From: Kiritimatiellia bacterium
Lineage (GTDB): Bacteria; Verrucomicrobiota; Kiritimatiellia; RFP12; UBA1067
DNA: 32,186 bases
NCBI GenBank assembly: GCA_017418445.1
Contig: JAFONM010000045.1
Span: forward strand, 1 to 32,186
Direction: 5' to 3'
Under the pieces are notes generated by a model that was not told the DNA's origin, made no database searches, and saw only the letters and a program-made list of their open reading frames with translations. This document shows positions 1,063 to 31,024 of this stretch, piece after piece. The position numbers and the translations under genes were made by a program. Within the stretch, counting starts at the first letter, position 1. Each line of letters starts with the position of its first letter.

Positions 1063-1942
1063 TTGCACCCGCCTCCGCGGCGTTCTGCGCCGATGCCGCG
1101 GCATCGACCTTCTCCTCCGGCTGCGGAGCGGGCGCAGGCTGCGGCGCGGGAACGGCCTCGAAGCGCGTCGGATTCTTCGCCATGAACTCCCATGCGAAAG
1201 CCTTGTAGCTCTCCGCGCCCTTGGAGCGCGGATCGAGGAAGACCACCGGAGTCCCCATCGACGGAGCCTCCGAGACGCGGACGTTGCGTGGAATCGTGGT
1301 CTCGTAGACCCTGTCGCCGAAGTGCTTCCTGACCTCCTCCATCACGTCCTGCGTGAGGCGCGCGACGGAGTTGACCATCGTGAAGACGATTCCGTTCAGC
1401 TCGAGAGACGGATTGACGGACGCCCTGATGCGGTCGATCGAGCCGGTGATCAGGGCGAGGCCGTCCATCGCGAGAAACTCCGCCTGGATTGGAATAAGGA
1501 CCCCGTCCGACGCGACGAGCGAGGATGTCATTACGATTCCGAGGGACGGCGGACAGTCGAGGACGATGTAGTCGAAGGCACCGGCCTCCTTGACGGGCGC
1601 AAGGGCGTTCCTGATCATCTCGAGGCGGTCGGGACGCGCGCCGAATTCGAGTTCCGCGCCAGCGAGGTCGACCTCGGACGGGATGACGTTGAGGTTGTTC
1701 CACTTCGTCGGCTGGATCACGTCCTCCACGGCCTTCTCCCCGAGAAGGACGCGATAGAGTGAAATGCCGGGCTGCTTCTCGAGTCCGAGCCCGAGCGTCG
1801 CGTGCGCCTGCGGATCGAGGTCCACGACCAGGACGGCGCGCTTCCGCGCCGACAGCGCCGCGGCGAGGTTGACCACCGTCGTCGTCTTGCCGACCCCGCC
1901 CTTCTGGTTTGCCACTGCGATTATCTTCGTTCTGCGTTCCAT
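1055..1942 (-). CDS. parA: ParA/Soj-family chromosome partitioning ATPase
   Basis: 295-residue Walker-type ATPase of the ParA/MinD superfamily. Such proteins bind DNA non-specifically as ATP dimers and, with ParB, move replication origins or other cargo. Visible motifs: deviant Walker A ANQKGGVGKTTT at residues 11-22 with the signature lysine (K14), VVDLDPQAHAT (Walker A'), and YIVLDCPPSLG (Walker B). The C-terminus after about residue 265 is a Pro/Ala/Glu-rich tail (VPAPQPAPAPQPEEK) likely to be disordered. No parB and no parS site (TGTTTCACGTGAAACA) is visible here, so whether it is the chromosomal Soj or an orphan ParA is open. Its ATG directly abuts the stop of the unknown protein upstream, and it is the last clear member of the long minus-strand operon. 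Confidence 0.88.
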   Translation of the reverse strand: MERRTKIIAVANQKGGVGKTTTVVNLAAALSARKRAVLVVDLDPQAHATLGLGLEKQPGISLYRVLLGEKAVEDVIQPTKWNNLNVIPSEVDLAGAELEFGARPDRLEMIRNALAPVKEAGAFDYIVLDCPPSLGIVMTSSLVASDGVLIPIQAEFLAMDGLALITGSIDRIRASVNPSLELNGIVFTMVNSVARLTQDVMEEVRKHFGDRVYETTIPRNVRVSEAPSMGTPVVFLDPRSKGAESYKAFAWEFMAKNPTRFEAVPAPQPAPAPQPEEKVDAAASAQNAAEAGANG

Positions 1943-2473
1943 TTAGAATAGCTTGCCTTTCTCGTGAAGTTCGCGGATGTTCTTTCCGGTGCTGCGCTCG
2001 ACCTCCCTGCGCCACAGCACGATGAGCGCCACGTCCCACGGATCGTCGACCGTCTGGAGGACCGCACGGAACGGATCGTTCCTGGAGAGGACGTCGTTCT
2101 TGACGCGCTCGGTCACGGCCGCGAGGGAGTCGGTGACTATCTGCTCGGAAAAGTTGTCGCTCTTCAGATGGTATCCGTAGCGGAGTATCCGGAGATTCTC
2201 CTCCGTCTCGCGAAGGAACTCGAGATACTCCTTCGCCTCCTCGCCGAAGCCCTCCAGGGTCGGCGGAACGAAATGGGGCGCGATCACCTCCGGCTGGTGC
2301 GCCTCGAGGCGTCCTTCGCGGACACGTATCTTGCCCGGATGGTCGTCGAGTTCGGATATGACGTGATAGTTGACGAGCGTGGAGCCGAACGTCTCGAGCC
2401 TGTGCGTGGGCGAGACGATGATCTTCACGTGGCGCGCCGCATACCACCTGTCGAAATCCGGATTCGAACTCAT
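1943..2473 (-). CDS. Conserved-looking protein of unknown function upstream of parA
   Basis: 176-residue soluble protein, [18 protein letters not shown]..., not recognised. It has no signal peptide or membrane segment. The N-terminal half looks beta-rich (KIIVSPTHRLETFGS, NYHVISEL, GKIRVREGRLE) and the C-terminal half helical and charged (FGEEAKEYLEFLRETEENLRIL, then ERVKNDVLSRNDPF and VDDPWDVALIVLWRREVERS). The start is fixed by a 4-nt ATGA overlap with the HAD gene stop and by GGGGGAG 8 nt upstream. The stop abuts the parA start with no gap, so the two are probably co-translated. A link with ParA is therefore possible but rests only on position. No function is proposed. Confidence 0.75.
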   Translation of the reverse strand: MSSNPDFDRWYAARHVKIIVSPTHRLETFGSTLVNYHVISELDDHPGKIRVREGRLEAHQPEVIAPHFVPPTLEGFGEEAKEYLEFLRETEENLRILRYGYHLKSDNFSEQIVTDSLAAVTERVKNDVLSRNDPFRAVLQTVDDPWDVALIVLWRREVERSTGKNIRELHEKGKLF

Positions 2474-3126
2474 GCGGAGAACTCCCCCTCGATGTCGAAC
2501 TCGGAGAGGTCCCTGACCGTCCAGGTCGCGCCGGAAAGATCCATGGGGACCCTGCTGCGGTCGAGTGCGAGAACCTTCATGCCCGCCGCGACGCCCGAGG
2601 CGACGCCGACGGCCGAATCCTCGACGACGACGCAGTCCGCGGGAGCGACGCCCAGCCTCTTCGCAGCCTCGAGGAATCCGCTCGGATCGGGCTTGCCCTT
2701 CGCGTAGTCGCCGGCGCCGAGAACCAGATTCGTCACGTCGTCGACTCCGCACAGTCTCGCGGCGGCCTCGACGTCCCTGCGCGGAGATCCCGACACGATG
2801 GCGCACGGCGCCATCGCGGAGACCCTCCTGAAGAAATCCACCGATCCCCTGACGATCATCGACTCGGGGTTCGCGGCGTGCTTCGAGTAGTATCCCCTCA
2901 GAACGCGCGCGTCCTCTTCGGGAACGGCGACTCCCAGTTCCGGATGCTCCGAATGCAGCCAGCGGTCTATGTCGAGCCAGTTGCGTCCCACGACGTTGAC
3001 GAGTATCGTCTCCGCGTCGGCACTGCCGCCGCGCGAGGCGATCCAGTCGCACATTGCCGCCGCCCAGGCCGGCTCCGTGTCGACCAGCGTCCCGTCAAGG
3101 TCGAAGAGGAACGCCGCCGGCTTCAT
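2470..3126 (-). CDS. HAD-family phosphatase, beta-phosphoglucomutase/PGP-like
   Basis: 218-residue haloacid dehalogenase-like hydrolase. Motif I is [11 protein letters not shown] (nucleophile D9, general acid D11); motif II is [10 protein letters not shown]; motif III lysine is in [19 protein letters not shown]; motif IV is [20 protein letters not shown] helical cap lies between motifs I and II (residues about 15-85). This subfamily (IA-3) acts on small sugar phosphates such as hexose phosphates or phosphoglycolate; the substrate cannot be read from the sequence. The start MKPAAFLF is chosen because the longer reading frame upstream runs through the SEC-C gene, and its ATG overlaps that gene's TGA (ATGA). 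It also overlaps the next gene by 4 nt. Confidence 0.88.
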
Positions 3127-3626
3127 TTTCCCCTGCCGCAGCACTTCTTGTACTTCTTGCCGCTCCCGCAGGGGCACGGATCGTTCCTGCCGACCTTCGG
3201 CTCCTCGCGCACGATCGGCTTCTCGCCTACGAGATCGCCGTCCTCGAACTTCCAGCCGTCGGCCTCCTTCACGAATGTGGAGACCTCGTGGTGGTTGCAG
3301 AACTCGCCGTTCGCCGTATAGGAGGCGCGGAACTCCACGACTCCCGTCGTGTCGTCCGGCCCGCCCTTCTCGGTGCGGATGATTTCAAGCCCGTGCCATT
3401 CGGCCGAGCGGCTCCAGGCGCGCGATGTCGCCTCGTCGAACTCGTCCTGGACGGCCTTCACGGCGCTCGTCTTCAGAAACGGAATGTGCTCCGTGGCGTA
3501 CGCGGTATAGCGCGCGCGCATGAGAGCCTCCGCGGTCGGAGCCTTCGCCCCGCCGTCGAGAATCGGACCGCAGCATTCGCCGTAGGTCCTGCCGGAATCA
3601 CATGGACACTTTTCTTCGTTGTTCAT
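3123..3626 (-). CDS. YchJ-like protein with two SEC-C zinc motifs
   Basis: 167-residue protein with a SEC-C type zinc-binding motif at each end: [13 protein letters not shown] near residue 7 and [13 protein letters not shown] near residue 149. Between them is the UPF0225/YchJ central domain ([33 protein letters not shown]), an NTF2-like fold in related structures. SEC-C motifs bind zinc and in SecA mediate contact with SecB and ribosomes; the role of YchJ proteins is not established. The start overlaps the end of lnt by 29 nt and has only a weak Shine-Dalgarno (AAGGC). An extended -10-like sequence just upstream may drive it separately. The stop overlaps the HAD start by 4 nt. Confidence 0.9.
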
Positions 3627-5241
3627 AGCTTGCCTTATATTCTACCATACCAATCGCCGTTAGTAAAACGAGAAAGGCGCAAAAAAGCGGCACGTCTCCG
3701 AGGCGGACGTAGACCGTAGGGGTCCAGTCCGACGGCATGTCGATCCGCGCGCACATCGCTCCCGCCTCGTCCACGATCGGCCGCCCGTCCCCGTCGACAA
3801 GCCATGACGCCTTTCCATCCGGCGAAATCGTGCCCGTGACGCCGGAATTGCCGACGCGCGCGACGGGAAGCCCCGTCTCGATCGCGCGCGCCACGGCCTG
3901 CCAGGCGTGCTGCACGGGCTCGACCGAGTTCGAGAACCAGTTGTCGTTGGTCATGAAGACGAGAACCCTGGCACCCTTCTCCGCGAGCCGGCGCATCTGG
4001 GCGGAATCCGTGTCTTCGTAGCATATCGCGACGCCCAGCTTCGCGGTGGAGGCGTCGAGCGCGAGTTCGAGCGTCTTCAGCTCGCCGGGCGTGCAGCTTC
4101 CGACCGGGGCGAGCTTCTGGAGGACCGTGAAAACCTTGTCGAACGGTATGAATTCCCCGAACGGCACGAGATGGACCTTGTCGTAGACGTCGGAGCACCG
4201 GGGGCGGGACTCCGGGTGCCGGGAGTAGAGGGCGGCGGAGTTGTAGAGTTTCTCCCCGGACCTGCGCGAGCCACCGGCAAGGACGGCCTTCGCCCCCGTC
4301 ACGGACATCGCCTGACGGGCAAACAGCGACGCCCGCGGCGAGTCGACGGCACCCACTTCGCAAAATGCGCTTTCGGGAAGAACCAGAACATCCGGCTTCG
4401 CATGGGCAAGAGTCGAGAAAAGGAACGAATACCGCTCCTCCGTGTCCTCCTCGACGCCCTGCGACATCTCGAAGACGGACGGGAAGTTGCGCTGGACGAG
4501 TCCCGCGCTCATCTTGACGTGGCAGGAGGACCCGAAGAAATCCCTGCAGACTCCGGCAATCTGATAGACGCCTATGACGAGGACGAGCGGGACGATCGTC
4601 TCGACGGACCGGAGCCAGCGCGGCGGCGCGCCGACCTGCTCCGAATCGCGCATGAAGCCGGCGAACATTCGCTCGGCGATGGAGACGAACGTCCCGTTCA
4701 CGAGGACTGCAATCGCACTCACGAGATAGACGCCGCCGAGCATGGCCGGCCCGCCAAGACCCGCGTTCACCGGAGCTACGCCGAGCTGGTTCCATGCGAA
4801 ACCGCCGAAGAGCCGCGAGCGGACGATTTCAAGGCCCGCCCAGAGGACCGGTTCGGCGACAAAGATCGCAAGGAGCCTCCATCCGTAATGGCGCGTCCGG
4901 ACCCAGCGCCACACGATGGCGGCGAGCCACCCGAACAATCCGAAGTAGAGCGCGCAGTACGCGGCGAGCGCCCCCCAGCCGAGGACGACGAGAGGCCACG
5001 GACCGCCGTTCTTGACTATCGCCGGCATCCAGGAAAGCGTGGCCGTCCAGAAAAAGAGTCCGTTGGAGAACCAGCAGAGGAACGAGCGCTTCGGGGAGTT
5101 GCGGCGCGAGAACCATATTGCGGGCGCAAGAGCGAAGAACACGTCCGCGCTCTCGCCCATCGGCGGAAAGCTCGCCCACAGGAGGAATCCCGGGACGAAC
5201 CAGAGCAGCAGCGGAAGCTTTTCGAGCAGTTTTCGAATCAT
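3598..5241 (-). CDS. lnt: Apolipoprotein N-acyltransferase
   Basis: 547-residue integral membrane enzyme that N-acylates the lipid-modified cysteine of lipoproteins, the last step of lipoprotein maturation. Its presence argues for a diderm envelope. The N-terminal half has about seven hydrophobic segments ([53 protein letters not shown] and others), followed by a periplasmic nitrilase-fold domain and a final anchor near residues 520-538. The catalytic triad is intact: E290 in [10 protein letters not shown]355 in [15 protein letters not shown], and C407 in VAICYED. The start ATG forms a 4-nt ATGA overlap with the U32 gene stop. The partner gene lgt is also in this window (26261-27052) in another operon; lspA is not visible. 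Confidence 0.95.
3639..3647 (-). promoter_or_regulatory. Weak internal promoter candidate before the SEC-C gene
   Basis: Minus-strand TGGTAGAAT inside the last codons of lnt is one base off the TGGTATAAT motif found at four other gene starts in this window. It ends 12 nt before the SEC-C gene ATG, so transcripts would be near-leaderless. It lies inside a coding region and may be chance. Confidence 0.25.
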
Positions 5242-21211: not shown

Positions 21212-22132
21212 ATGGGCAACATAAGGTCGAACATCCTTGAGGCGATCGGAAACACGCCGCTGGTGAGGATCAACAGGATGAACAGGTCCTCCGCCGAGGT
21301 CCTCGTCAAGGTCGAGTATTTCAACCCGGGGCTCAGCGTCAAGGACCGCATCGCCGTCGCGATGGTCGACGCCGCGGAGAAGAACGGGACTCTCAGGCCG
21401 GGCGGAACCCTGATCGAACCGACCAGCGGCAATACAGGTATCGGACTCGCGCTCGTCTCCGCCGTCAGAGGCTACCGCCTCGTGCTCACCATGCCCGACA
21501 CGATGTCCATCGAACGCCGCAGGCTCGCGGCCGCATACGGAGCCGAAATCGTCCTCACGCCAGGCGCGGACGGAATGCAGGGCGCGATCGACAGGGCCAG
21601 GGAGCTTCACGAGTCGACGCCGAACTCCATAATCCCCCAGCAGTTCGAGAATCCGGCGAACCCCGAGAGGCACGAGGAGACCACCGGACCCGAGATACTC
21701 CGCGACACGGACGGCAGGCTTGACGCCTTCGTCGCTGGAGTCGGCACCGGCGGAACCCTCACCGGCATCGCCCGCGCGCTCAGGGCGAAACTCCCTGACG
21801 TAAAGGTGTTCGCAGTGGAACCGGACACATCTCCCGTCCTCTCGCAGGGGCACGGCGGACCCCACAAGCTCCAGGGCATCGGAGCCGGATTCGTCCCCAG
21901 GACGCTCGACACAGGCGTCTACGACGGCGTCATAACCGTCTCCGCGGCGGACGCCGGATCCACCGCGCTCGCAGCCGCAAAGGAGGAGGGACTCCTCGTC
22001 GGCATATCCTCCGGCGCAGCGCTGTGGGCGGCGCTCGACCTCGCGAAGAAGCCCGAGTGGGCCGGCAAGCGCATCGTCGCGCTGCTCCCGGACAACGGCG
22101 AGCGATATCTCTCGACCTGGCTTTTCGAGTGA
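21212..22132 (+). CDS. cysK: Cysteine synthase (O-acetylserine sulfhydrylase)
   Basis: 306-residue fold-type II PLP enzyme that makes cysteine from O-acetylserine and sulfide. Motifs: ILEAIGNTPLVRINRM; PLP lysine in EYFNPGLSVKDRIAVAM; substrate loop EPTSGNTGIGLAL; QQFENPANPERHEETTGPEI; phosphate-binding GVGTGGTLTGIAR; HKLQGIGAGFVP; and GISSGAALWAAL near the C-terminus. Length is standard and all key residues are present. The ATG at 21212 follows AAGGAAG. The larE::bioB gene starts 12 nt after its stop, so cysteine or sulfide supply and sulfur insertion are co-expressed. A cystathionine beta-synthase-type enzyme is a less likely alternative. Confidence 0.94.
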   Translation: MGNIRSNILEAIGNTPLVRINRMNRSSAEVLVKVEYFNPGLSVKDRIAVAMVDAAEKNGTLRPGGTLIEPTSGNTGIGLALVSAVRGYRLVLTMPDTMSIERRRLAAAYGAEIVLTPGADGMQGAIDRARELHESTPNSIIPQQFENPANPERHEETTGPEILRDTDGRLDAFVAGVGTGGTLTGIARALRAKLPDVKVFAVEPDTSPVLSQGHGGPHKLQGIGAGFVPRTLDTGVYDGVITVSAADAGSTALAAAKEEGLLVGISSGAALWAALDLAKKPEWAGKRIVALLPDNGERYLSTWLFE

Positions 22133-22144
22133 CGCGGCAGACGG

Positions 22145-23911
22145 ATGAAAACCGCGGCAGAGAAACTCGAGAGCCTCAGGCGGACCCTGCGCGATGCCGG
22201 GTCCGTCGCGATCGCGTTTTCGGGAGGGACCGACTCGACGTTCCTCCTGAAGGTCGCCCACGACGAGCTCGGCCCGAAGGCCGCCGGCTTCATGGTCGTC
22301 TCCCCTTTCGTCCCGTCCCGCGACGCCAGGGAGGCCGGGGCCTGGTGCGGGAAGGAGAACATCCAGCTCCACATCCTCGACGCCGACCCCGTCTCGGACG
22401 CGCAGATCGCGTCCAATCCGCCCGACCGCTGCTACTTCTGCAAGAAGACCGACTTCTCGATAATAGGCACCTTCGCGAAGGCATGCGGATTCAGGGTCAT
22501 GTGCGACGGATCGAACGTCGACGACTCCGGGGACTACCGTCCCGGAGCGAAGGCCATGATGGAACTCGGCGTCAGGAGTCCGCTGAAGGAATGCGGACTC
22601 GCCAAGGCGGAAATACGGGAGCTCTCCCGCGAAATGGGCCTTCCGACGTGGAACAAGCCCGCCGCGGCGTGCCTCGCCTCCCGCATCCCCTACGGCGAGA
22701 CCATTACGCTCGAGAAGCTTCAGACTGTCGACAGGGCGGAGAACCTGCTTTTCGACGAAGGTTTCCGCGGCGCAAGGGTCCGGCTCCACGGCGGAACGCT
22801 CGCGCGCATCGAGGTCGCGCCGGCGGACATGGAAAGGCTTCTTTCGATGCGGGAGACGATCGTCCAGGACTTCAGGTCGATAGGCATCAGGTACGTCGCG
22901 ATGGACATGGAAGGATACCGCACGGGAAGCTTCAACGAGATGTTCAACGTCGAATCGACAGTCTCGAGGCTGGAGCGCGGCGGCGAACTGACGAAGGAGG
23001 AGGCGGTATGGTTCCTCAGGGCGGTTCCCCGCAGGACTCTCCGCGAGGCGGCGCACCGCGTCACCAAGGCGCGGACCCCGCAGGTGTTCGACTTCTGCGG
23101 AATCGTCAACGCGCGTTCGGGGCGCTGCGGCGAGGACTGCAAGTGGTGTGCGCAATCGGGGCGCTACCGCACCGCCTGCGAGAACCACGGCTGGATCGGC
23201 GCGGACGAATGCGTCAAGGCCGCAAAGGCCGCCGAGGCGAAGGGAGCGGTCCGCTTCGCGATCGTCACTTCGGGGCGGGGACAGTCCCCCGGACAGATCG
23301 ACGAAATATGCGAGGCTCTCAGGAAGATCAGGTCCGAGACCCGCCTCCACCTCTGCGCCTCGCCGGGACTCGTCACGGAGGATGACCTCGGGAAGCTCAA
23401 GGCCGCCGGACTCGAGCGCCTCCACTGCAACCTCGAAACCGCGCCGTCGCGGTTCGGGAAGCTCTGCACGACGCACACGACGTCCGACAAGATCGCGACG
23501 ATCAGGTCCGCGAAAAAGCTCGGACTCGATGTCTGCTCAGGCGGAATAATCGGAATGGGCGAGAGCGACGAGGAGCTCGTCGAATTCGCCTTCGCGCTGA
23601 AGGAAGTCGAGCCCGTGTCGATTCCGGTGAACGTCCTCCATCCCGTCAAGGGGACGCCGCTGGGAGAATCCGGTTTTCTCGACCCGGACCGCATCATCGA
23701 CTCGATAGCGCTCTTGCGCCTGGTGAACCCGACAGTCCCCCTGCGCTTCGCGGGCGGACGCCGCGACATGGACGACGCAACGGCGGAAAAGGCGGTATAC
23801 GTCGGAATATCGGCGGGGATAGCAGGCCCGCTTCTCACGACTCCGGGCGCGGACTACGACGACGACAGGCATCTCGCCGTCAAGGCGGGCTACGCCGTGG
23901 CGAAACTTTGA
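22145..23911 (+). CDS. LarE-type sacrificial sulfur transferase fused to biotin synthase
   Basis: 588-residue fusion in one uninterrupted frame. Residues 1-270 are LarE-like: PP-loop AFSGGTDSTFLL (26-32), NPPDRCYFCKK, DGSNVDDSGDYRPGAKAM, and LPTWNKPAAACLASRIPYGE with C176, the cysteine that L. plantarum LarE sacrifices to thiolate a nicotinate derivative. Residues about 280-588 are BioB: radical-SAM cysteines C328, C332 and C335 in SGRCGEDCKWCAQS; candidate auxiliary-cluster ligands C404 (LHLCASPG), C464 (DVCSGGIIGMGE) and R534 (LRFAGGRRD); and GPLLTTPGADYDDD near the end. C428 (LHCNLETA) sits where E. coli BioB has NHNLDTS, offering a possible fourth cysteine ligand. The reaction would be desthiobiotin plus sulfur to biotin. 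The LarE half may deliver sulfur to the cluster (inference). No lar genes or other bio genes are in the window. Confidence 0.9.
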   Translation: MKTAAEKLESLRRTLRDAGSVAIAFSGGTDSTFLLKVAHDELGPKAAGFMVVSPFVPSRDAREAGAWCGKENIQLHILDADPVSDAQIASNPPDRCYFCKKTDFSIIGTFAKACGFRVMCDGSNVDDSGDYRPGAKAMMELGVRSPLKECGLAKAEIRELSREMGLPTWNKPAAACLASRIPYGETITLEKLQTVDRAENLLFDEGFRGARVRLHGGTLARIEVAPADMERLLSMRETIVQDFRSIGIRYVAMDMEGYRTGSFNEMFNVESTVSRLERGGELTKEEAVWFLRAVPRRTLREAAHRVTKARTPQVFDFCGIVNARSGRCGEDCKWCAQSGRYRTACENHGWIGADECVKAAKAAEAKGAVRFAIVTSGRGQSPGQIDEICEALRKIRSETRLHLCASPGLVTEDDLGKLKAAGLERLHCNLETAPSRFGKLCTTHTTSDKIATIRSAKKLGLDVCSGGIIGMGESDEELVEFAFALKEVEPVSIPVNVLHPVKGTPLGESGFLDPDRIIDSIALLRLVNPTVPLRFAGGRRDMDDATAEKAVYVGISAGIAGPLLTTPGADYDDDRHLAVKAGYAVAKL

Positions 23912-28610: not shown

Positions 28611-29288
28611 TCAGATCTCGATCCTGGTGATCTTGCGGATTATCAGCCAGCCCACGGTGATAAGGAAGATCACGGCGACGACGGAAATCAGGCCCGTCCA
28701 GCTGAGGAGGAACGGAATCATCATCTTCGGCTTCAGGAAGACCATCGCGACGCCGAGAACCAGCGGCATCAGCGAGACGATGATGCCCTGCATCCGACCC
28801 TGGGCCGTGAGCGTCCTTATCTTGCGCTCGATCTTCATGCGCTGCCGGATCGTGTCGGAGATCTTGTCGAAGATCTCGGTGACGTTGCCGCCCGTCTTGC
28901 GGCTGACCAGTATCGCCGTGATGACGAGCGTGAGGTCGTCGGATCCGACGCGGTCCGACATGGACTGGAGCGCGTCCTCGAAGCCCATGCCGATCCTGAG
29001 CTGCTGCTGGAGTATCGAGAACTCCTCGCACATCGGCTTCTCCCCCTGCTCGACCACGCTGTCGAAGGCCTGGGCGAGCGAGAATCCCGCGCGAAGCGCG
29101 TTCGACATCGTCGCAAGCGCCTCCGGAAGCTGGTCGTTGAACCTGCGCCGGCGGCGCCCGTCGAGCCAGCGGGCGATCGGACCGTCCCCGTTCTGCCAGC
29201 CGGACTTCACCTTTATGCCGGTCAGGCAATAGGCGCCGAGTCCGCCGACGGCGAAGGCGAAGAGCGAGACTATCAGCCAGCCGATCAC
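28611..29288 (-). CDS. tadB: Tad/Flp pilus inner-membrane platform protein (T2SF domain)
   Basis: 225 residues. One N-terminal membrane helix (VIGWLIVSLFAFAVGGLGAYCL), then a cytosolic type II secretion F domain: DQLPEALATMSNALRAGFSLAQAFDSVVEQGEKPMCEEF, GFEDALQSMSDRVGSDDLTLVITAILVSRKTGGNVTEIFDKISDTIRQR, and two C-terminal helices. It is shorter than typical TadB (about 300 aa) because the N-terminal part is reduced. The start is GTG: GTGA overlaps the tadA stop, and GGAGG sits at proper spacing inside the end of tadA. The usual partner tadC is absent downstream; the operon ends here at the shared hairpin. Confidence 0.86.
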   Translation of the reverse strand: MIGWLIVSLFAFAVGGLGAYCLTGIKVKSGWQNGDGPIARWLDGRRRRRFNDQLPEALATMSNALRAGFSLAQAFDSVVEQGEKPMCEEFSILQQQLRIGMGFEDALQSMSDRVGSDDLTLVITAILVSRKTGGNVTEIFDKISDTIRQRMKIERKIRTLTAQGRMQGIIVSLMPLVLGVAMVFLKPKMMIPFLLSWTGLISVVAVIFLITVGWLIIRKITRIEI

Positions 29289-31024
29289 CTGCGCACCTCC
29301 AGGTCGACATTTCCCTCGAAGTCCGGATCGAACATCCTCGGATCGCACTTTATGCCGCGGCCCGCAAGCTGGTCGTACCACGTGGGCATCGCCCCCGTCG
29401 GACGGAAATCCCCGAGGACCCTGCCGTTCGCGCCCACCCCGGTCTGCCTGAAGGCGAATATCTCCTGCATGACTATCTGGTTGCCCTCGATTCCCGTCAC
29501 CTCCGATATGGCGACGACCTTGCGGGAGCCGTCGGAGAGCCGCGACTCGTGGATGATGACGTCGACGGCGCTCGCGATCTGCTCGCGGATCGCCTTCGAG
29601 GGGAGTTCCATCCCGCTCATCATCACCATCGTCTCGAGACGCGACACGACGTCGCGCGGCGAGTTCGCGTGCACCGTCGTCAGCGAGCCGTCGTGTCCGG
29701 TGTTCATCGCCTGCAGCATGTCGAGCGCCTCTCCTCCGCGGCATTCGCCGACGATGATGCGGTCGGGACGCATTCGCAGGCAGTTCCTCACGAGATCGCG
29801 GATCGTCACGGCGCCCTTCCCCTCGATGTTCGGGGGACGCGCCTCGAGGCGGACGACGTGCGGCTGCTGGAGGCGCAGTTCCGCGGCGTCCTCGACGGTC
29901 ACGATGCGCTCGTCGTGCGGAATGTAGCCGGAAAGAAGGTTCAGGAGGGTCGTCTTGCCGGAACCGGTTCCGCCCGCGACGATCACGTTCTTCCTCAGGA
30001 GGACGCAGAGCCGCATGAACTCGGCGGCATTGTGCGTCCACGTGCCGAATCGGATGAAGTCGTCCGGCGTCAGCGCCTTCTTGGAGAACTTTCGGATCGT
30101 GATCGTCGGACCCGACAGCGCCAGCGGAGGAATTATCGCGTTGACGCGGCTGCCGTCCGCGAGTCGCGCGTCAACGTACGGCTGGCTCTCGTCGATGCGG
30201 CGCCCGAGCGGGGCTACGATGCGCTCTATGACCGCGAGAACGCTCGCATCGTCCGTAAACTGGCAGTCCGAAAGCTGCAGCTTGCCCCCGCGCTCCACGT
30301 AGACCTTCGAGGCCCCGTTGACCATGATCTCGCTGACCGTGTCGTCCGCGAGAAGATCCTCGAGCGGACCAAGCCGCATCGCCTCGTTGAAGACGTCGTC
30401 CTCGAGCCGCACCGGGTCGATTCCGTCCGGGAGCCTCCCCTTCGCCACGACCTCGTCGATGATTCCGCGTATCTTCTCGCGCGCCGTGTCCTCGAGTCCC
30501 TCGTGGTCCACGCCCTGGAGCGTGAGCTTCTTCATGTCCATGCGCTTGAGAAGCTCGTGCTGGATCTGCTCCTGGACGTTCCTGCGAATCTCGCGCATCG
30601 GATCGGGCGGCGGCGACTCGTCTTCCTGCCGCGGCGCCTCCGGCTCGGACGCCGGGACCGCCTCGGGATGCGCGTCCGCAGTCCAGCCGGCAGGATGCGG
30701 CTCTGCATATTCAGACTGCGGTTCCGCCGTCCCTGCGTCCGCCTCCGATATGCGCAGCATGCTCGAGCCGATCTGGACGACCTTGGATCCGTCGAGCTCG
30801 ACGGGCCTGTCGATCTCCTCGCCGTTGACGTACGTTCCGTTGGCGCTGTGGAGATCCTCGATGACCGCCCGGCCGTTCCTTACGGTGAGGAGCGCGTGGC
30901 GCTCGCTGACGTCCTGAAAGTCAAGCCTCAGGCGGCACATGTCGCCGCGGCCGATGAGCCACACGCCGTCCGAGATGCTGCACCTTTCGCGGTTTCCGTC
31001 GATGAGGGTCGTGAGTTCGAGCAT
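29285..31024 (-). CDS. tadA: FHA domain fused to TadA/CpaF pilus ATPase
   Basis: 579 residues. Residues 1-95 are an FHA phosphothreonine-binding domain: WLIGRGDMCRL (G25-R26), DVSERHALL (S40, R42, H43), DLHSANGTYVNGEEI (N62-G68). A Pro/Glu-rich linker (about 96-140) leads to the secretion ATPase: LADDTVSEIMVNGASKVYVE, Walker A VAGGTGSGKTTLLN (351-359), VTVEDAAELRLQQPHVVRLE (Asp box), Walker B region DRIIVGECRGGEALDMLQAMNTGHDG, and the His box TTVHANSPRDVVSRLE. It powers assembly of Flp-type pili. FHA domains occur on separate proteins in some Tad and type VI systems; a direct fusion suggests control of the motor by a Ser/Thr kinase (inference). The Shine-Dalgarno is GAGGAG. It starts 12 nt after cpaB. 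Confidence 0.93.
   Translation of the reverse strand: MLELTTLIDGNRERCSISDGVWLIGRGDMCRLRLDFQDVSERHALLTVRNGRAVIEDLHSANGTYVNGEEIDRPVELDGSKVVQIGSSMLRISEADAGTAEPQSEYAEPHPAGWTADAHPEAVPASEPEAPRQEDESPPPDPMREIRRNVQEQIQHELLKRMDMKKLTLQGVDHEGLEDTAREKIRGIIDEVVAKGRLPDGIDPVRLEDDVFNEAMRLGPLEDLLADDTVSEIMVNGASKVYVERGGKLQLSDCQFTDDASVLAVIERIVAPLGRRIDESQPYVDARLADGSRVNAIIPPLALSGPTITIRKFSKKALTPDDFIRFGTWTHNAAEFMRLCVLLRKNVIVAGGTGSGKTTLLNLLSGYIPHDERIVTVEDAAELRLQQPHVVRLEARPPNIEGKGAVTIRDLVRNCLRMRPDRIIVGECRGGEALDMLQAMNTGHDGSLTTVHANSPRDVVSRLETMVMMSGMELPSKAIREQIASAVDVIIHESRLSDGSRKVVAISEVTGIEGNQIVMQEIFAFRQTGVGANGRVLGDFRPTGAMPTWYDQLAGRGIKCDPRMFDPDFEGNVDLEVRR

Follow-up and report, generated by a model that had tools for sequence, protein, structure and literature searches.

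The window (the whole stretch of 32,186 nucleotides analysed here, from a Kiritimatiellia bacterium whose genome, G000, is 65% complete) contains one in-frame, stop-free ORF of 588 codons on the + strand (22145..23911), encoding a LarE-BioB fusion protein designated P0001. The LarE half covers residues 1–267 (22145..22945, +) and was recognized by model TIGR00268 over residues 6–264 (306 bits, cut-off 150); the BioB half covers residues 281–588 (22985..23908, +), was recognized by TIGR00433 over residues 282–583 (331.5 bits, cut-off 225), and was matched to BioB by both sequence and fold. Upstream lies cysK, for cysteine synthase A (21212..22132, +; TIGR01139, 442 bits, cut-off 351), separated from the fusion gene by a gap of 12 bases, and the two genes likely form one operon. 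P0001 had a single match in G000, and among the matches listed from a 387-genome draw of the phylum none but that of the window itself was full-length and in one piece. Elsewhere in the window, a frame on the - strand (29285-31024) resembles a TadA-type secretion ATPase and includes an FHA-like stretch (residues 16–91) that scored under that model's cut-off.

The solved structures nearest in sequence to the BioB half were 8VDW from V. parvula (E 3.8e-70) and 8VCW from B. obeum (3.4e-62), both named biotin synthase, followed by the E. coli enzyme, 1R30 (1.4e-41); fold comparison gave Z scores of 43.4 and 43.3 for 8VDW and 8VCW versus 39.6 for 1R30. We take 8VCW and 8VDW to be the Type II enzymes of Lachowicz 2024. 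The auxiliary-cluster ligands of E. coli BioB are C97, C128, C188 and R260; E. coli residue numbers throughout follow 1R30 numbering as recovered from our alignments. PMC11138216 describes the ligands of the E. coli-type cluster as three Cys and one Arg, and PMC11099021 and PMC11138216 both describe a [4Fe-5S] cluster as used by the BioB of anaerobes, one of the two calling this enzyme Type II.

Residues were compared over 113 aligned BioBs, comprising the window, 29 relatives, 80 named loci and 3 PDB segments, the named loci being the best 80 of 591 found by two peptide patterns. The radical SAM motif CXXXCXXC (C328/C332/C335; 23126..23149) was present in all 113, as were C404 (23354..23356; E. 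coli C128), C464 (23534..23536; E. coli C188) and R534 (23744..23746; E. coli R260). Two further cysteines, C318 (23096..23098) and C441 (23465..23467, within LCTTH), were each found in 111/113, the exceptions in this set being Ser in 1R30 and Gln in L108 for C318, and Ile in 1R30 and Val in L071 for C441. By alignment with 1R30, the site of the E. coli ligand C97 is occupied by A372 (23258..23260), the Cys having been lost; all of these features lie on the + strand. C318, C404, C441 and C464 are common to P0001, 8VCW and 8VDW and the C97 position is Ala372, and on these residues the BioB half is therefore classed as a Type II (anaerobe-type) biotin synthase and not as a Type I enzyme with the C97/C128/C188/R260 set. 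The four shared cysteines would hold the auxiliary cluster, which by analogy with the anaerobe enzymes is expected to be [4Fe-5S]. The likeness to 8VCW and 8VDW extends to the HxNxET motif and to the fold (Z about 43), and P0001 differs from both in having Cys at 428 (theirs are H and S), in having Cys at 356 (theirs is Ile), and in being fused to LarE. With the Type I enzyme 1R30 it shares the fold, the radical SAM motif and the counterparts of C128, C188 and R260, but it is without the C97 counterpart, has the extra C318 and C441, and has Cys in place of H152. The presence of bioD in the same genome and of rumen genomes among the closest named BioB relatives (in the best 80 of 591 loci) fits, as supportive observations only, the making of biotin from dethiobiotin in an anaerobe.

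A sequence-only reading of this DNA had named C404, C428, C464 and R534 as a possible ligand set of a variant auxiliary cluster, of the kind reported for BioB proteins of anaerobes. The named residues are real and have the E. coli counterparts given here; C318 and C441 had been missed, as had A372 at the C97 site, and the span of 23400-23620 attached to the set holds C428 but leaves C404 and R534 outside. The idea of a variant cluster survives in the form of the Type II cysteine set, of which C428 is not the mark. Two rows other than 1R30 depart from this set. The BioB of L108 (Nitrospirales; ORF 3857-4933) has a Cys aligned with E. coli C97 together with C441, yet Gln at 318, and judging from these residues its ligand set is possibly intermediate between those of Type I and Type II; the BioB of L071 (Anaerobiospirillum; ORF 3518-4996) keeps C318 and C428 with Val at the C441 position, and, 1R30 aside, was the only row of the 113 (including the best 80 of 591 loci) without C441.

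C428 (23426..23428, +), in the context LERLHCNLETA, aligns with E. coli H152, so the proposal that a Cys replaces the His of the E. coli motif was correct; the replacement is not a chance one, Cys being present at this position in 30/30 aligned BioBs of the same order, fused or unfused (30 of 36 BioB-like matches at least 36% identical, the remaining 6 being without a locus). Variability among close homologues, named beforehand as a ground for refutation, was thus absent within the order, but position 428 does vary across Type II enzymes: alignment with the characterized anaerobe-type BioBs showed C404 and C464 to be common to them, and position 428 to be H in 8VCW and S in 8VDW, and among Bacillota Type II enzymes it is H, N, A, E or D. 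The overall count was C 90, H 11, N 6, A 2, E 2, D 1 and S 1 in the 113 BioBs (including the best 80 of 591 loci), a share of Cys that is not a census because the loci were gathered by two search patterns and only the best 80 of 591 were kept. A tree built by a quick method from 111 distinct rows (two duplicates dropped from the 113, and column 428 itself included) had a single branch (SH-aLRT 90) dividing the 88 Cys428 rows from all others, so that Cys428 amounted to 1 change, where shuffling gave a mean of 21.2. The Cys428 clade contains Bacteroidota as well as the group to which the window belongs and isolated rows from other phyla, and the Bacillota rows carry the other residues. C428 co-varied with W334 and F535, which is in essence the contrast between two clades, W334 also being part of a search pattern. 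As position 428 varies across Type II enzymes and both solved enzymes are without the Cys, C428 appears on this distribution to be an inherited lineage residue, a clade marker outside the Type II signature, although its invariance throughout the clade suggests some constraint.

That C428 itself might be a ligand, completing a set with C404, C464 and R534 in place of the lost C97, would be consistent with A372 at the C97 site, with the 30/30 conservation in the order, and with the Anaerobiospirillum protein that is without C441 but has C428. We consider this very improbable, and rejected C428 as fourth ligand as the leading reading, given the variation at 428 among Type II enzymes and given that C318 and C441, both near-invariant, are also found in the solved Type II enzymes, where residue 428 is H or S. 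The BioB half of the predicted model is well determined (most ten-residue blocks near or >90 pLDDT). Position 428 alternates along its strand with H427, N429 and E431, which are polar and conserved, and this suggests that the C428 side chain points away from them and so probably faces the other way. The adjoining N429 is the counterpart of E. coli N153; this, and the invariance of C428 over the 88 distinct rows of its clade (including rows from the best 80 of 591 loci), could also be read as signs that C428 acts close to the auxiliary cluster as a thiol relay, carrying the persulfide with which the cluster is reloaded in one branch of Type II BioB, that of Bacteroidota/Kiritimatiellota. Other Type II enzymes manage without Cys428, and we judge the relay quite improbable. 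A literature search for mutagenesis of the E. coli motif yielded nothing useful. The suggestion that C428 may explain the fusion did not hold, because Cys428 also occurs in BioBs that are not fused, among them BioBs from genomes in which no LarE was detected; as C428 is invariant in unfused relatives, it was rejected both as a cause and as a consequence of fusion.

The LarE half contains an SGGTDS PP-loop and C96-X2-C99 plus C176, which together form the CXXC-C motif, and S179, R211 and R213 correspond to the proposed P2CMN phosphate-binding residues. In T. maritima LarE, according to PMC9283937, the CXXC-C motif binds a [4Fe-4S] cluster, for which a non-core sulfide has been proposed. The SGGXDS PP-loop and CXXC-C (motif as given in that paper) and the phosphate-binding Ser and two Arg are those of [4Fe-4S]-type LarE; C176 and the S/R/R residues were kept in 17/17 LarE rows and the CXXC in the 16/16 rows covering that stretch. 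P0001 shares the PP-loop, CXXC-C and the P2CMN-phosphate S/R/R with [4Fe-4S]-dependent LarE (T. maritima; 8CNZ), and differs from it in being fused to BioB beside cysK, with larC on another contig. With the sacrificial LarE of L. plantarum (5UDQ) it shares the fold, the PP-loop and the S/R/R site, but it does not belong to that type, since the residue aligned with the sacrificial Cys176 is A175 and CXXC-C is present instead. The stretches around the LarE CXXC (82-86, 90-99 and 127-134) are of low confidence in the predicted model. LarE-only rows in one alignment were only 23-26% identical where about 51% was expected, i.e., they were misaligned, and the alignment that served for folding was made without them. 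G000 also encodes LarC, a LarA-like protein and BioD, and the LarE half most likely keeps its own job, that of nickel-pincer nucleotide synthesis with LarC.

LarE and BioB were found in one frame in two genomes, G000 and G031 (named record L033), and a fusion of the reverse order, BioB-LarE, was found in G028 (L004). In L004 the single frame (1375-3225, +) runs from BioB into LarE, with a HydE gene and cysK lying before it. At three other loci (L031, L036 and L039) larE and bioB overlap in different frames, so one indel could join them, and the genomes are drafts; the fusion in the window might on this basis be an artefact, two neighbouring genes having been joined by misassembly or a frameshift. 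The second LarE-BioB fusion and the one of reverse order, each with zero stops across the junction, make an artefact extremely improbable. cysK lies directly 5' of bioB at four loci with no larE there (L008, L012, L019 and L037), and for this reason cysK-bioB looks like the basic unit, one that received larE or hydE. At two loci the larE and bioB genes are separated by an unrelated gene, which on visual inspection is small and transposase-like in L009 (411-1489) and amidohydrolase-like in L011 (749-1474). Six Bacteroidales BioB frames of 744-823 residues (L042, L043, L044, L045, L059 and L067) consist of BioB plus an extra stretch of roughly 400-430 residues. A literature search of titles and abstracts found no LarE joined to BioB; prior publication is still possible.

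Co-occurrence was scored in 58 relatives. LarE and LarC were both present in 27, LarE only in 3, LarC only in 3 and neither in 25 (p=8e-10), and BioB and BioD were similarly distributed (28 both, 6 BioB only, 4 BioD only, 20 neither; p=7e-7); the figures for LarE and BioB were 21 both, 9 LarE only, 13 BioB only and 15 neither (p=0.11). These p-values are rough, the genomes being drafts and related to one another, and as most are incomplete the absences are soft; the LarE count of 30 takes in a partial match (G009), one at a contig edge (G057) and a weak match with two stops (G042). LarE was fused to BioB or lay within 1.2 kb of it in 11/21 genomes having both. In 9/30 LarE genomes (G036, G041, G042, G045, G049, G052, G053, G055 and G006) LarE lay within 1 kb of a LarC match, never also near BioB, so that within one order larE has two alternative neighbourhoods, larC or bioB. 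LarE went undetected in 13/21 BioB-bearing genomes of the genus, and among the named loci (best 80 of 591) it stood beside BioB in 6/80, all of them among the ten closest and rumen-type. LarE as an obligatory partner of BioB was rejected on co-occurrence, since it tracks LarC and not BioB.

Fusion in both orders, together with the proximity or fusion in 11/21 genomes, argues for some functional link between the two proteins, whereas the co-occurrence argues against dependence. The link might be that the LarE half is a dedicated donor, passing the extra sulfide of its own [4Fe-5S] cluster to the BioB auxiliary cluster and so making P0001 a self-recharging biotin synthase. Fusion in either order (G000 and G031 versus G028), adjacency or fusion in about half of the genomes with both genes, and the presence of CXXC-C in LarE and of the Type II cysteines in BioB would all suit such a donor; the BioB-bearing members of the genus with no LarE detected, the tracking of LarC by LarE, the confinement of LarE-BioB neighbours to a few rumen-type loci (6 of the best 80 of 591), and the P2CMN residues kept in LarE speak against it, and we think it unlikely. 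A fuller version, in which a [4Fe-5S] LarE half would catalytically recharge a [4Fe-5S] Type II BioB via the non-core sulfide, C428 possibly taking part in the relay, we regard as distinctly unlikely; if it were true, a single polypeptide would be a catalytic, self-recharging biotin synthase.

Our preferred explanation, which we hold to be highly probable as a whole, is that P0001 joins a Type II BioB, with C428 outside the ligand set, to a LarE with its own job, through a shared operon and sulfur supply. The radical SAM [4Fe-4S] cluster would sit on C328/C332/C335 and the auxiliary cluster, expected to be [4Fe-5S], on C318, C404, C441 and C464, with the extra sulfide of the latter going into dethiobiotin; C428 would be a lineage residue beside the conserved Asn429 with no ligand role. 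The LarE half, of the CXXC-C [4Fe-4S] type, would most likely still make the nickel-pincer nucleotide with LarC. The halves would have been joined because of the common operon with cysK, and plausibly a common sulfide or persulfide supply, and not because BioB needs LarE; such a shared supply, preferred though unproven, fits both the fusion in either order and the co-occurrence. Of all this, homology, residues, conservation, co-occurrence and gene order are observed, and the cluster type, the assignment of ligands, the division of labour and the common sulfur supply are inferences. C428 alone is of low interest, and C318 and C441 are the residues to mutate for study of the auxiliary cluster. 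Of more interest is the fusion of LarE with BioB, which occurs in either order: it unites on one chain two enzymes that are both believed to draw on a non-core cluster sulfide, giving a one-protein system for asking whether LarE reloads BioB, i.e., how anaerobe-type BioB may turn over.
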